From the NCBI RefSeq assembly GCF_014651115.1, contig NZ_BMWG01000007.1, positions 1 to 64,000 on the forward strand: 64,000 bases of DNA, read 5' to 3'. Source of the stretch: Streptomyces inusitatus. GTDB taxonomy: Bacteria; Actinomycetota; Actinomycetes; Streptomycetales; Streptomycetaceae. A program made the position numbers and the translations under genes. This document shows, in pieces, positions 1 through 4,776 of the stretch. The notes under the pieces were generated by a model. It saw nothing but the letters and a program-made list of their open reading frames with translations. It searched no databases and had not been told where the DNA came from. Each line of letters starts with the position of its first letter. The first letter of the stretch is position 1.

Positions 1-96
1 GCGCCGGCCGGGGCCCGCCCCCCCGGCCGGAGCGGCCGCCCCCCGGGGCGGGCCCCCCCGCCCCGGGGGGGCGGGGCCCGGCGGGGGGGGGGGGCG
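1..96. other. Near-pure G/C low-complexity sequence end, probably artefactual
   Basis: Only one A and no T occur in the first 96 bases, which consist of C and G homopolymer blocks, including a run of twelve G at 83-94. The permease frame is formally open through it but encodes only Pro, Gly, Ala and Arg. From about base 97 the sequence becomes ordinary Streptomyces coding DNA. This looks like a degraded contig end rather than biology. Confidence 0.6.
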
Positions 97-2642
97 GACG
101 CCGCGGTGACGGCGGCCGACGCCGCCCCGCCGGGCGCGAGCCAGATCGCGACCGCGGCGGCCGGGACGGCTCCGGTCAGCGAACCGGCCAGCCCCAGCGC
201 CGCGCCCTCAGTCAGCACCAGCCGGGCGATCGTCCGGTCCGTCCAGCCGGTGGCCCGCAGGGTGGCGAACTCACCGGCCCGGTCGCGGATGTTCAGATAC
301 ATGACATCGCCGACGGCGACCGCGGCCAGCAGCGCCATCAGCGTCACGGCCGCGATGTCCGTGCCCCGCACCCGTACCGAGACCGCGTCGCCGAGCAGCG
401 ATCCGGCGAGCACTCCGTCGAAGGTCACGAGGGCCGCCATCAGCAGCGTGACCGAGCCCGCCGCGATCGCCGACGCGGCGATGCCGAGCAGGGCGCGGGC
501 CCGGGAGCGGGCCGTGTTCACCAGCGCCAGCCGCCCGACCCCGCCCACCGGGCGGGCCCGGCGGCCGACCGCGACGGGCGGACGCAGCGCCTCCAGCGGC
601 CTCGCCCGGGACGCCCGCCAGGCCGAGGGCACCCCGCCGAGCACCGCGACGCCGATCGCGCCGGGCACGGAGAGCAGGGCGTACGCGGTGCTCACGGCCG
701 TGTCCAGCATCGCCGACGCGGCCAGCGCGAGGCCTGCCCCCAGCACCCCGGCGAGGGCCCCGAGCACGAGCAGCTCCCCGAGCACGGCGGTGAACAGCCG
801 CCCCCGGCTCCAGCCGACGGCACTGAGCAGCCCCAGCTCCGCGCGCCGGGCGCGCACGGACGCGGCGGTGGCGTTGCCGATGAACAGACAGCACACGGTG
901 AGCATCAGGACGAGCAGCACCACGCTCTTGCGGTCCACCGCCTCAAAGACCGCGGCCACCACGTTCTTCTTGCTCCACCACTCTTGAAGCCGCAGCTCGG
1001 GGCGGCCGAAGTCGCCTGCGGGCAGCTCCACCGCGCGGGCGGCGGGCGAGGAGCCGAGCACGATGTCCACCGCCAGGCCGGTGCGGCTCGCGAGGGCCTC
1101 GGCGGCGACCCGCACCCGTTCCCGGGAGACGGCGTCGGCCCCGGTGACGCCGGCGACCGAGACGCGCACGGCGGAGATCGGGGCCCGCGCCTGCCGGTCG
1201 GTGAGCAGCCCGGCCCGGCCGAGCCAGCCGACGGCGTCGAGGGTGGTGAGCATGAGCGGCGGCTGCTGGGGATAGCCGGTGGGGGAACCGGCGGGCAGCA
1301 GCGGCTTCCCGCCGAGGCGCTCGCGTGAGGCCCGGTCCGCGCCGTGCAGCCCGGGGGCGGTGTACGCGCCCATCGGCACCCGGGCGGCGGCGTCGTACGC
1401 GGGCAGCCGCCCCGGGTCGAAGACGCCGGTGTTCCGGCCGTGCACGGCGGGCGGCGCGGCGGGGGCGGCCGGGCGCGACAGCGGGCGGAACCAGCGGTCG
1501 CGCCCGTCGAGGGCCAGTTCGGCGGAGCGCGGCACGGCCCGGGGCCGCAGCGTGCCGTCCGGGGCCGCCGTGTGGCGCACCGGTCCCGCGACCACGAGTT
1601 CGCCGAGCGGGCTGACGGTGCCCGGCGCGCTGTCGCGCACGGTGTCGGTGGTGGACAGCTCGGCCCGGTGCAGGGGCGCGCCGCCGCCGCTCCGGCGGAC
1701 CTCGGTCCGCAGGGTCAGGCCCGTCGTGGCCCCCCGGGCGCGCAGCAGGGGGAGTTCGGTGGAGTCCGCGTACCCCTCCTCGCCCTCGACCGTCACCGGC
1801 CGGCCGGGGGTGAGATAGCGGCCCGAGGTCAGCGCCCGGTCCAGGCCGAACAGCTCGGCCTCGGCCGCCGGGTCGATTCCGGCGAGGACGTAGGAGGAGG
1901 GGAAGGTGAGGACGGCGACGGTCGGCGCGAGATCGTGCCCGGCGCCGGGCCCCTGGTGGCGGCTGGTGACGCCCGCCCAGGAGAGACAGAGGACGGGTTC
2001 CTCCGAGGTGTGGAGGTTCTTCGCCGAGGGGGCTTCGTGGCGGCCCCGGCAGACCTCCGCCTCCTCGCCGGACGGCAGCCGTTCCCGATAGCGGTTGGTC
2101 ACCCGCCGGCTCCCGCCGGCCAGTGTCACCGTCGGACCCTCCTCGACGGTGATCGGGTTCGGGGTGAGGTAGACGCGCCGGCTGCTCTGCCGGATCGTCG
2201 AGAGCCCCTGGTCGTACGTCCAGTCGCGGGTGATCTCGAAGGAGCCCCGGGTCCCCCTCGGCAGGATCCGGGCGAGGTCGAGGGTGGCGCGTCCGGCCGT
2301 CGGCGCGAAGCCCAGCACGGCGATCGGGGCGGCGACCCGGACGCCGGGGGTCCGCCGGATCCGGGCCAGCTGGGCGGTGGTGATGCCGCCGTGGACGTCC
2401 GACACGGCGTTGGGCCGCACCAGGTTCAGCCGGGTCTCCAGCTCTCCGGCGGCGCTCCGGGGGCGGACGAGGATGTCGTACGCGCCCCGGGTGCGGGACA
2501 GCTCGCCGTGCACATCGAGCCGGGAGGACTCGGTCGTGGAGGAGAGCACCACGAAGGAGGAGACGGCCGTCAGCACCCCCAGCAGCAGGGCGAGCGATCT
2601 CGCGGGCCGCCCCGCCAGCTGTCGCCGGACGAAGAGAAACAC
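1..2642 (-). CDS. FtsX/MacB-type ABC transporter permease (3' end cut by window edge)
   Basis: The minus-strand frame beginning with GTG at 2642 stays open to the left edge (about 850 codons seen). The start follows a purine-rich GGAGGAGAGGAAGAGGA ribosome site. A first membrane segment lies at residues ~13-35, followed by a long extracytoplasmic region. From residue ~570 there are several membrane helices with the FtsX cytoplasmic signature RRAELGLLSAVGW, repeated later as GEFATLRATGWTDRT. FtsX-like permeases of this size export lipoproteins, peptides or lipids, or mediate peptide sensing and resistance, together with a separate ATPase. No ATPase gene is visible here; it may lie beyond the edge. 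Two Cys-rich peptide genes lie just upstream in the same direction. The last ~30 codons fall in the suspect G/C tract and should not be trusted. Confidence 0.85.
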   Translation of the reverse strand, partial: MFLFVRRQLAGRPARSLALLLGVLTAVSSFVVLSSTTESSRLDVHGELSRTRGAYDILVRPRSAAGELETRLNLVRPNAVSDVHGGITTAQLARIRRTPGVRVAAPIAVLGFAPTAGRATLDLARILPRGTRGSFEITRDWTYDQGLSTIRQSSRRVYLTPNPITVEEGPTVTLAGGSRRVTNRYRERLPSGEEAEVCRGRHEAPSAKNLHTSEEPVLCLSWAGVTSRHQGPGAGHDLAPTVAVLTFPSSYVLAGIDPAAEAELFGLDRALTSGRYLTPGRPVTVEGEEGYADSTELPLLRARGATTGLTLRTEVRRSGGGAPLHRAELSTTDTVRDSAPGTVSPLGELVVAGPVRHTAAPDGTLRPRAVPRSAELALDGRDRWFRPLSRPAAPAAPPAVHGRNTGVFDPGRLPAYDAAARVPMGAYTAPGLHGADRASRERLGGKPLLPAGSPTGYPQQPPLMLTTLDAVGWLGRAGLLTDRQARAPISAVRVSVAGVTGADAVSRERVRVAAEALASRTGLAVDIVLGSSPAARAVELPAGDFGRPELRLQEWWSKKNVVAAVFEAVDRKSVVLLVLMLTVCCLFIGNATAASVRARRAELGLLSAVGWSRGRLFTAVLGELLVLGALAGVLGAGLALAASAMLDTAVSTAYALLSVPGAIGVAVLGGVPSAWRASRARPLEALRPPVAVGRRARPVGGVGRLALVNTARSRARALLGIAASAIAAGSVTLLMAALVTFDGVLAGSLLGDAVSVRVRGTDIAAVTLMALLAAVAVGDVMYLNIRDRAGEFATLRATGWTDRTIARLVLTEGAALGLAGSLTGAVPAAAVAIWLAPGGAASAAVTAASAPPPRRAPPPRGGGARPGGRPLRPGGRAPAG

Positions 2643-2692
2643 CCGGTCCTCTTCCTCTCCTCCCGCCTTCGTGCGGGCTCTCGTGGTGGTTC

Positions 2693-2746
2693 GCCGCGTC
2701 CGCCGCGTCCGCCGCGTCCGCCGCGTCCGCCGGGTCCGCCACGTCC
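2693..2746. repeat. Six tandem copies of a 9-bp unit
   Basis: Four exact copies of GCCGCGTCC are followed by two variants (GCCGGGTCC, GCCACGTCC). The array fills the gap between the stop of the Cys-rich peptide gene at 2781 and the permease start at 2642. It may be a simple-sequence expansion or a protein-binding array. Confidence 0.8.
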
Positions 2747-2760
2747 GCCCGGAGCGGACG
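2742..2760 (-). terminator. Short hairpin downstream of the peptide genes
   Basis: CGTCCGC and GCGGACG form a perfect 7-bp stem around a 5-nt loop, about 20 nt past the stop codon of the second Cys-rich peptide. There is no T-tract. It could attenuate read-through from the peptide genes into the permease gene. Confidence 0.35.
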
Positions 2761-2780
2761 GACCCGGCGGCCGGGATCCG

Positions 2781-2996
2781 TCAGCAGGCTCCGACGGTGT
2801 GCCAGGGCTCGCAGTAGGGGCGCGGGCAGGCCGATCCATAGGCCTGGTAACAGCAGCGCTCCTGCTTGAGCCCGCCGTTGCACCTGGTCTCCTTGCGGAC
2901 CGGGCAGGCCCCGCTGGTGCAGGTGAGCGCGCGGGCCTCGGTCTCCGGCACGAGCTTGCTCAGCAGGGTGTCGCCGATCTTTCTGAGAGCTCTCAT
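2781..2996 (-). CDS. Cysteine-rich 71-aa peptide, paralogue B
   Basis: ATG at 2996 follows GAAAGGGATCAC, a good ribosome site that is also found before the neighbouring paralogue, so the longer upstream frame is not used. The first ~25 residues are a charged amphipathic segment with no Cys (MRALRKIGDTLLSKLVPE...). The rest carries eight Cys at 26, 31, 39, 48, 49, 57, 62 and 71, ending in Cys. It pairs with paralogue A (3094-3309): same length, same leader pattern, same CC doublet, same terminal Cys. There is no classical Sec signal; the hydrophobic stretch is too short, although an A-R-A motif precedes the first Cys. I infer a leader plus disulfide-rich or modified core, as in a RiPP precursor or secreted miniprotein. 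No modifying enzyme is in view. Confidence 0.8.
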   Translation of the reverse strand: MRALRKIGDTLLSKLVPETEARALTCTSGACPVRKETRCNGGLKQERCCYQAYGSACPRPYCEPWHTVGAC

Positions 2997-3093
2997 GTGA
3001 TCCCTTTCGCAGGTCCGGTTCCGGTGTCGCGCCGTTCCTCGGGGGAACCGGACCCCCGCCCGGGCGAAGGGCTGGATCCGGTGACAGGTCCGC

Positions 3094-3309
3094 TCAGCAG
3101 AACGACCGGGTGAACTCCCATTCACCGCAGTAGGCGTTCATGCAGGCAGGGGGGCGGGCCATGTAGCAGCACCGCTCATGGAGCCGATTGACGATGCACT
3201 TGTACTCCTTGCGGGACGGGCACGCCGTACCGCAGGTCACCGCTCTGGCCTCGGCCTCGGGGACCAGCTTCCGCAGTAACGCGTCGCCGACTCGCCGCAG
3301 GGCGTTCAT
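3094..3309 (-). CDS. Cysteine-rich 71-aa peptide, paralogue A (TTA codon)
   Basis: ATG at 3309 follows GAAAGGGATCGT. Eight Cys lie at 26, 30, 38, 47, 48, 56, 61 and 71. The leader MNALRRVGDALLRKLVPE and the motifs ACPSRKE and ERCCY closely match paralogue B. The leaders are far more alike than the non-Cys core residues, a pattern typical of a conserved leader with a diversifying core. Leu11 is encoded by TTA (3277-3279), the codon read by the developmental bldA tRNA in Streptomyces. A perfect TGTGA-N6-TCACA palindrome lies ~80 bp upstream. The gene is likely cotranscribed with paralogue B and possibly the permease. I recognise no named family; the function is unknown. Confidence 0.8.
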   Translation of the reverse strand: MNALRRVGDALLRKLVPEAEARAVTCGTACPSRKEYKCIVNRLHERCCYMARPPACMNAYCGEWEFTRSFC

Positions 3310-3612: not shown

Positions 3613-4776
3613 GTGAGCACCTATCGCGACTTCGCCCACCGGGGCTCCGCCCGGGCCACCGTCCTGCGCACCGTCGGCACCCGCGAGCGGCGCTCGCACC
3701 TCACCGCGCCCCGCGTCCCCACCGTCGGGATCGACATCGGCGGCACCAAGGTGATGGCCGGCGTCGTCGACGCCGACGGCGTCATCCTGGAGAAGGTCCG
3801 CACCGAGACCCCGCACAAGTCCAAGAGCCCCAAAGTGGTCGAGGACACCATCTGCGAACTCGTCCTCGACCTCTCCGACCGCCACGACGTCCACGCGGTC
3901 GGCATCGGCGCGGCCGGCTGGGTCGACGCCGACCGCTCCACGGTCCTCTTCGCCCCCCACCTCGCCTGGCGCAACGAACCCCTGCGCGACGCGCTCTCCG
4001 CGCGCCTCGCCGTCCCCGTCCTCGTCGACAACGACGCCAACACCGCCGCCTGGGCGGAGTGGCGCTTCGGCGCCGGACGCGGCGAGGACCATCTGGTCAT
4101 GATCACCCTCGGCACCGGCATCGGCGGCGCGATCCTGGAGGACGGCCGGGTCAAGCGCGGCAAGTTCGGGGTCGCCGGAGAGTTCGGCCATATGCAGGTG
4201 GTGCCCGGCGGACACCGCTGCCCCTGCGGCAACCGGGGCTGCTGGGAGCAGTACAGCTCCGGCAACGCCCTCGTCCGCGAAGCCCGTGAGCTGGCCGCCG
4301 CCGAGTCGCCGGTCGCCCACTCCCTCATCGACCGCGTCGGCGGAAACGTCGCGGACATCACCGGCCCGCTCATCACCGAGCTGGCCCGCGAGGGCGACGC
4401 GATGTGCGTCGAACTCTTCCAGGACATCGGCCAGTGGCTCGGCGTCGGCATCGCCAACCTCGCCGCCGCCCTCGACCCCTCCTGCTTCGTCATCGGCGGC
4501 GGCGTCAGCGCCGCCGACGACCTCCTCATCGGCCCCGCGAGAGACGGCTTCCGCCGCCATCTCACCGGCCGCGGCTACCGGCCCGAGGCCCGCATCGTCA
4601 AGGCCCAGCTCGGCCCCGAGGCCGGCATGGTCGGCGCCGCCGACCTCGCCCGCCTCGTCGCCCGCCGCTTCCGCCGCGCCAACCGCCGCCGCCTCGAACG
4701 CCACGAACGGTACGAGCGCTACGCCCAGGCCCTCCGCAACTCCGCCTCCCCCCGAGGCACCACCCCGGAGTCCTGA
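3613..4776 (+). CDS. ROK-family glucokinase-like sugar kinase
   Basis: 387 residues. The phosphate-binding motif DIGGTK is at 41-46, followed by DNDANTAAWAE and GTGIGGAI. The ROK zinc motif GHRCPCGNRGCWE is at ~200-212. There is no N-terminal winged helix, so this is a kinase rather than a ROK repressor. It would phosphorylate glucose or a related hexose at O6 with ATP in the cytoplasm. The C-terminus carries an unusual Arg-rich tail (RRFRRANRRRLERHERYERY). GTG at 3613 is the first start in frame; homologues differ at the N-terminus, so a later start is possible. It is divergent from the Cys-rich peptides and followed by a small membrane protein. Confidence 0.85.
   Translation: MSTYRDFAHRGSARATVLRTVGTRERRSHLTAPRVPTVGIDIGGTKVMAGVVDADGVILEKVRTETPHKSKSPKVVEDTICELVLDLSDRHDVHAVGIGAAGWVDADRSTVLFAPHLAWRNEPLRDALSARLAVPVLVDNDANTAAWAEWRFGAGRGEDHLVMITLGTGIGGAILEDGRVKRGKFGVAGEFGHMQVVPGGHRCPCGNRGCWEQYSSGNALVREARELAAAESPVAHSLIDRVGGNVADITGPLITELAREGDAMCVELFQDIGQWLGVGIANLAAALDPSCFVIGGGVSAADDLLIGPARDGFRRHLTGRGYRPEARIVKAQLGPEAGMVGAADLARLVARRFRRANRRRLERHERYERYAQALRNSASPRGTTPES

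Follow-up and report, generated by a model that had tools for sequence, protein, structure and literature searches.

The window analysed here comprises 64,000 nucleotides of Streptomyces inusitatus starting at base 1 of contig NZ_BMWG01000007.1 (C7:1-64000), and it begins with the truncated gene of a large FtsX-type permease preceded by two genes for cysteine-rich peptides. From sequence comparison, we judge it probable that these genes belong to the end of an operon that is interrupted by a contig gap and would make two secreted peptides rich in disulfides, most likely antimicrobials of the bacteriocin type. In the mechanism that we propose, a dedicated ATP-binding cassette (ABC) exporter without a C39 peptidase domain would recognise the leader and export the precursor, as its linkage suggests, and a dedicated S26 peptidase would cleave after an A-x-A motif, as suggested by this motif and by linkage. 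A membrane-anchored CxxC thioredoxin, together with MauE in most relatives, would form or correct four disulfides outside the cell. The weakest step concerns the permease, which, with a LolD-like ATPase, could constitute an accessory ABC machine, most likely for self-protection against the cell's own peptide. The features at this end of the window are the following.

3094..3309, minus strand: precursor peptide 1 (71 residues, eight cysteines; leader, residues 1-23, at 3241-3309; core at 3097-3240)
2781..2996, minus strand: precursor peptide 2 (71 residues, eight cysteines; leader, residues 1-23, at 2928-2996; core at 2784-2927)
3..2642 (reading frame from 2642 to <3), minus strand: N-terminal part of an FtsX-type ABC permease truncated at the contig end; frame reliable over ~115-2642
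1..114, no strand: near GC-only contig end, beyond which the operon would continue on contig C32

Twin precursor peptides

A preliminary description of this DNA had reported two adjacent genes for 71-residue, eight-cysteine peptides followed in the same direction by an FtsX permease, and this arrangement was confirmed: all three genes lie on the minus strand, with peptide 2 directly preceding ftsX. Both peptide genes have AAAGGGATC upstream of the start codon, in line with the shared ribosome site noted there, and both peptides show the cysteine framework given for them, with spacings of 3/4-7-8-0-7-4-9/8. Their near-identical leaders and more divergent cores were likewise borne out, as the leaders are identical at 17 of 23 positions and the cores share all eight cysteines but only 14 of the 41 other aligned positions. 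When peptide 1 was searched against its own genome, the second copy was recovered at E 7e-18, and no third such gene was found at E up to 0.001. The GC content at third codon positions (0.87-0.90), together with a ratio of nonsynonymous to synonymous substitutions (dN/dS) of ~0.24 (0.275/1.14) between peptide 1 and its Streptomyces jumonjinensis homologue, which implies purifying selection, points to real genes. Homologues with conserved cysteine spacing, named beforehand as a test, were found: the alignment of the close group of peptide 1 has a common cysteine framework.

Both leaders, of ~23 residues, end in Ala-x-Ala and precede a core of ~48 residues with the eight cysteines. They are amphipathic and not of the Sec type. 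A Sec-type signal peptide is ruled out for them by the lack of a hydrophobic core, a judgement made from hydropathy rather than with a signal-peptide predictor; the longest run without charged or polar residues and proline is 3-4 residues in the two leaders. An AlphaFold2 model of peptide 1 built with six homologues (mean predicted local distance difference test score, pLDDT, 72.4; predicted template modelling score, pTM, 0.48) places a helix in the leader (residues 3-20) and a hairpin in the core (32-39 and 42-49). Residues 15-23, the AxA region, are disordered and of low confidence in this model, and the block means of pLDDT over residues 31-71 are 80-89, so that the core is predicted to be folded. 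A sequence search of the PDB gave no match at E up to 1, and at this limit the window peptides were without a match among Pfam and NCBIfam models; of other precursors, two searched in Pfam and five in NCBIfam gave none either.

A constant leader and variable cores across 82 loci

The exporter is a better probe than peptide 1 for finding related loci. With peptide 1 as query, relatives were found in 4 of 199 congeneric genomes, including its own, and only two among GTDB contigs, one of which duplicates exactly a locus of our set. A close homologue of the exporter (E up to 1e-110) is present in 64 of 392 Streptomyces genomes, again with the own genome included, and a sample across the class gave matches at E up to 1e-90 in 30 of 394 genomes and 11 of 137 genera. 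Three candidates per genome were scored in the exporter search. Among 72,556 plasmid records there was one insignificant match (E 0.5). The resulting set of 82 loci, in which the window and C32 count as one, consists of 76 of the 79 exporter matches (all but an apparent duplicate in genome G166 and the loci of G076 and G238), loci L011 and L013, and four loci from outside the genus, the only new ones added from the 51 class-wide matches. Counts of FtsX, MauE, thioredoxin and S26 refer to stretches of up to ~20 kb, some of them cut by contig ends.

The gene set recurs throughout these loci. By hidden Markov model (HMM) matching, MauE is found in 73, the thioredoxin in 78, the S26 peptidase in 78 and the exporter in 81 of the 82, and all four in 70; Pfam confirmed the gene families in representative loci. 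In the 67 loci first examined, the characteristic motifs were largely kept, with CxxC in 65/65 thioredoxins, C-x-C-F-G in 52/60 MauE proteins, and, for S26, S-M-x-P in 59/65 matched regions (64/65 whole reading frames) and the KR motif in 59/65; thioredoxin and S26 motifs were counted on the matched regions rather than on over-long open reading frames (ORFs).

An HMM of the leader matched 65 of 15,455 small ORFs at E < 0.01, spread over 56 of the 82 loci, and none of 20,780 ORFs on reversed DNA; since this model was built from the same loci, the conservation of the leader partly reflects how the matches were selected. An earlier pass had given 67 matches at E up to 1, of which 58 were below 0.01. 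Both window peptides match the model (E 4.9e-7 for peptide 1 and 2.7e-7 for peptide 2). At least six cysteines occur in the last 75 residues of 63 of the 65 matches, compared with 5.8% of small ORFs. In the earlier pass, AxA stands ahead of the first core cysteine in 65 of the 66 precursors with at least four cysteines, GEA being the exception, and no hydrophobic stretch of at least eight residues occurs in the leaders of 59 of 63 precursors. The cores have a median length of 43 residues and mostly 6, 8 or 10 cysteines, the number being even in 64 of the 67 precursors of the earlier pass. Median pairwise identity is 0.44 for 18-residue leaders, a figure favoured by the leader-based choice of precursors, 0.30 for cores and 0.27 for shuffled cores (61 precursors, 1,817 pairs; pairs with cores more than 80% identical were dropped). 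The cores thus diversify behind a constant leader, which may reflect an arms race, and the survey supports the combination of conserved leader, hypervariable cysteine-rich core and dedicated export system proposed in the preliminary description.

The high cysteine content would also suit proteins that bind metals or act as redox buffers and have no part in warfare. The AxA leader, the linked exporter and signal peptidase, and the variable number and spacing of the cysteines all argue against this explanation, which we regard as highly improbable.

Seven loci have two or three matches to the leader model. As a separate observation, locus L155 (G551:C1, 9998-10815), in a genome from outside the genus, carries three tandem precursors with near-identical leaders.

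Probable continuation on contig C32 and insertion site

The permease had been called lone and no modification enzyme had been visible beside it. Neither statement is supported, as the window appears to end within the operon, and synteny places the missing genes at the end of another contig, C32. When the exporter of S. jumonjinensis (locus L013) was searched against the S. inusitatus genome, it gave one match of 78%, at the right end of C32, the next best being 35%. The features at this end of C32, followed by the window gene on the far side of the peptide genes, are listed below.

Extreme right end of C32 (locus L018), minus strand: residues resembling the FtsX C-terminus in sequence comparison (compare L145)
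C32:67053-67559, minus strand: thioredoxin-like protein (TlpA/MauD-like; Pfam Redoxin/AhpC-TSA), start possibly further upstream
C32:65161-67032, minus strand: ABC exporter (MsbA-like; Pfam ABC_membrane and ABC_tran)
C32:64508-65167, minus strand: LolD-like ATPase (Pfam ABC_tran)
C32:63991-64416, minus strand: S26 peptidase (Pfam Peptidase_S26)
C32:63178-63984 (L018:5179-5985), opposite strand to the operon: sugar-ABC ATPase gene, inner border
Window 3613..4776, plus strand: ROK sugar-kinase-like gene, which borders the inserted cassette on the right; a neighbour outside the system

We infer the adjacency of C32 and C7 across the contig gap from synteny, because in S. jumonjinensis the peptide, thioredoxin, ABC and S26 genes lie between the ROK gene (which we take to be the identity of 3613..4776) and the sugar-ABC gene. 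The order of these four genes is the same as in the window and C32, and S. jumonjinensis lacks ftsX and the LolD-like ATPase gene. With the end of the operon on C32, an ATPase becomes available as a candidate partner of the window FtsX, and the gene set includes a peptidase and a thiol-redox protein, so that the apparent absence of modification enzymes was an artefact of the contig end. The suggestion to look to the left of the window for an ATPase or a maturase led to an ATPase gene and candidate maturation genes, with the join to C7 depending on synteny. The first 100 bases of C7 are 98% GC, probably reflecting poor assembly of positions 1..114, and the FtsX frame within the first ~100 bases is unreliable.

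Nine of 15 congeneric relatives have the sugar-ABC gene at a distance of 52-613 bases from the ROK gene, without a match to the peptide, thioredoxin or S26; in the remaining six, the sugar-ABC match was absent from the short stretch examined. With the site empty in these nine, the peptide cassette looks like an accessory insert that splits the sugar-ABC/ROK pair. At this site, locus L011 (G094:C1:6947500-6967400) shows the operon in decay: the thioredoxin and S26 genes are kept, the exporter was not found and the peptide ORF has lost most of its cysteine pattern; genome G094 has a fuller copy elsewhere (L010).

These observations bear on the function of the peptides, which are probably antimicrobial. 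Streptomyces use secreted peptides in development, and the products could instead be extracellular signals or developmental surface peptides that are exported, cleaved and oxidised in the same way and act on kin, with FtsX-LolD as a sensor or as a transporter for uptake or clearance. A gene for a BTAD-domain (SARP-type) regulator, identified by Pfam, lies near all six loci scanned for it (L094, L101, L137, L138, L145 and L147), and this, like the loci with two or three precursors, would suit a signal. The regulator genes count towards the antimicrobial reading as well. Nevertheless, a signal with a conserved receptor would not be expected to have cores hardly more alike than shuffled ones, a close homologue of the exporter is lacking in 328 of the 392 congeneric genomes, and the cassette appears to be an insert at a site often empty in relatives. 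We therefore consider signalling rather unlikely, and retain an antimicrobial role as the preferred explanation.

The FtsX permease as a probable accessory module

The window FtsX matches Pfam FtsX (PF02687) at E 1.8e-19 over two stretches. Its FtsX domains, its large extracytoplasmic part and the LolD-like ATPase gene on C32 are those of an FtsX/MacB-type (type VII) ABC transporter, in which it would pair with this ATPase. Co-occurrence of the permease with the peptides was found, in a minority of loci: a profile of this FtsX subtype matched 6 of the 82 (window/C32, L012 with a degraded copy, L137, L138, L145 and L147), and a weak seventh match, in L094, is of another kind. In five of the six, a peptide gene directly precedes ftsX on the same strand, the order in L138 being ftsX, ATPase, peptide. 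The LolD-like ATPase gene is directly beside ftsX in L138, L145 and L147 and two genes further on in C32; L012 has only a fragment of it, and the sequence of L137 ends within ftsX.

A search of 199 genomes with the FtsX ectodomain, scoring 12 candidates per genome, gave 10 matches, the own one included. Three of the nine foreign matches lie less than 7 kb from an operon exporter, and such stretches make up ~0.044% of the sequence (P 7e-9, on the basis of 47 exporter loci and a genome size taken as 8.5 Mb). Four others (L139-L141 and L143) lie away from peptide operons, with an ATPase gene beside a gene for a PadR-family regulator, the usual setting for drug-resistance transporters. The match in L142 adjoins apparent transposase genes, and that in genome G193 was excluded from the reading of neighbourhoods. 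In the FtsX tree, the window protein forms a long branch of uncertain position relative to the PadR-linked permeases, and two changes are required for the label "operon". Therefore, we claim recurrent linkage of the FtsX gene to the peptide operon, which these comparisons support, and not one origin.

The permease had been proposed as the transporter for export, sensing or self-protection. A dedicated export system is indeed linked to the peptides, but the common exporter is the MsbA-like ABC protein, and because 76 of the 82 loci have no match to this subtype, FtsX is better viewed as accessory than as the core exporter; an optional self-protection module would fit better than a main exporter. 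That FtsX-LolD exports both peptides, with the MsbA-like protein handling something else, would agree with the position of ftsX directly after a peptide gene in five of the six loci that have it. This seems very unlikely given that the ABC exporter is kept in 81 of the 82 loci, most of them without FtsX, and that in L010 the precursor, MauE, thioredoxin, ABC and S26 genes are all present when FtsX was not found and only an apparent remnant of the ATPase was seen by eye.

Proposed oxidation of the cores and points against the mechanism

Thiol-redox genes were the only candidates noticed for modification of the cores, and they raise an alternative in which MauE and the thioredoxin serve a further oxidative modification. 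The light chain of methylamine dehydrogenase carries disulfides plus a Trp-derived cofactor. MauE and MauD are maturation factors of that enzyme (PMC7794033), and the product could similarly be a RiPP (ribosomally synthesized and post-translationally modified peptide) with a Trp-Trp or Cys-Trp cross-link resembling the quinone cofactors of amine dehydrogenases, or a redox-active peptide. W64 is invariant among the close-group homologues of peptide 1, and tryptophan is common in cores outside this group. Disulfides alone, however, would account for the even cysteine numbers, neither window peptide matches the light chain of the dehydrogenase in Pfam, and no di-haem MauG, radical SAM or flavin adenine dinucleotide (FAD) enzyme was noticed in the gene tables of window-type loci, which were inspected by eye and not by a family search. 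Such a cross-linked product appears improbable to us.

Several observations weigh against the antimicrobial operon that we propose. MauE was not found in the C7/C32 operon, unless it lies inside the gap, nor in the near relatives L008, L009 and L013. An unlinked homologue is encoded at C14:11528-11920 (L175), with a weak match on C34; no peptide gene was seen beside the C14 homologue, which could serve the operon in trans. The C32 thioredoxin scores only E 4.7e-5 and 22.9 bits against the MauD model TIGR02661 (cut-off 188.6), the reductants ResA and DsbE scoring slightly higher, so that it could reduce rather than oxidise. A leader-model match is missing in 26 of the 82 loci, some of which have a more divergent cysteine-rich ORF and others none that was noticed. 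The model of peptide 1 resembles no known fold, with nothing below E 1.4 in Foldseek. Finally, of the nine foreign matches to the FtsX ectodomain, five or more lie outside any such operon, and with this FtsX in so few loci, one of them degraded, immunity elsewhere, if needed, would be provided by other means.

Relationship to known systems

The closest precedent is the decRiPPter study (PLoS Biol 2020), which predicted three candidate RiPP families in Streptomyces, all with mauE and precursors of at least eight cysteines and one with mauD as well, and whose authors found no other mau orthologues in three named genomes (PMC7794033). The window is a MauE-less, FtsX-bearing, twin-precursor variant of this kind: it shares the genus and, with eight cysteines in each precursor, the cysteine content, whereas their clusters contain MauE, as most related loci do, and FtsX-LolD and the twin precursors are additional. 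Those families are predictions, with no leader, AxA or S26 anatomy described in the passages drawn on here (PMC7794033). The term "candidate new system" in the preliminary description needs tempering, because the MauE-linked cysteine-rich families were predicted in 2020. We found no experimental study of such peptides in the open-access literature, where this prediction was the only direct precedent.

Maturation of methylamine dehydrogenase is similar in that a small protein with several disulfides, the light chain, is served by MauE (PF07291) together with a TlpA/MauD-like thioredoxin. It differs in that no dehydrogenase genes were noticed in the loci, where the cargo is a short hypervariable peptide with an ABC exporter. 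Lactococcin 972 clusters contain the bacteriocin gene followed by a large permease and a LolD-type ATPase, and thus resemble the window in having a small secreted peptide gene followed by a permease and an ATPase. Lactococcin 972 itself has no cysteine in the account consulted (PMC8538875), and the window precursors lack a Sec signal and do not match its family model (Pfam/NCBIfam, E up to 1). The C32 ATPase scores 165.4 bits against the lactococcin 972-associated TIGR03608 (cut-off 254.85) and 208.7 bits against the LolD model, which is the higher score, although below that model's own cut-off of 307.75.

The staphylococcal plasmid bacteriocin TMcin, with one disulfide and a transmembrane helix, is comparable as a disulfide-containing bacteriocin with a thiol-redox gene of the DsbA family in its cluster; the parts of its description used here mention no gene of the window-type operon (PMC12328743). 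Bacterial cis-defensins, chosen by a predicted signal peptide and the pattern C-x(3)-C...C-x-C, are also small secreted multi-disulfide peptides, as far as the consulted part of that study describes them (PMC11561630). By regular expression, this CSalphabeta pattern fails for both window peptides and matches 5 of 63 distinct family precursors. In contrast to class II bacteriocins with a C39 peptidase-exporter, the window leader ends in AxA and not in a double glycine, and C39 is not among the Pfam matches of the ABC protein.

A broader proposal, which we make tentatively as a close call, is that these loci represent a little-characterised actinobacterial class of disulfide-only ribosomal peptides, with a constant non-Sec amphipathic leader, their own ABC exporter, their own S26 peptidase cutting at AxA, oxidation by MauE and thioredoxin, and near-limitless cores; the window would belong to a sub-branch with FtsX-LolD immunity. 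If so, a common actinobacterial operon type would be a natural display system for disulfide-rich peptides, its cargo evolving fast behind a fixed leader, and a bacterial counterpart of conotoxin-like peptide libraries. In laboratory Streptomyces, the leader could then be used for other disulfide-rich cargo, and the FtsX-LolD branch would offer a handle on tolerance of such peptides. Similar operons occur with very different peptides in many actinobacteria and may thus be a source of antimicrobial peptides that has been little studied.

As in RiPP clusters in general, leader and core are encoded by a single small gene, which adjoins genes for export and processing. A related exporter also occurs at L104 (G331:C696), without a match to MauE, thioredoxin or S26; it adjoins a cysteine-rich ORF with an acidic, unrelated leader, and this locus perhaps represents another RiPP class.

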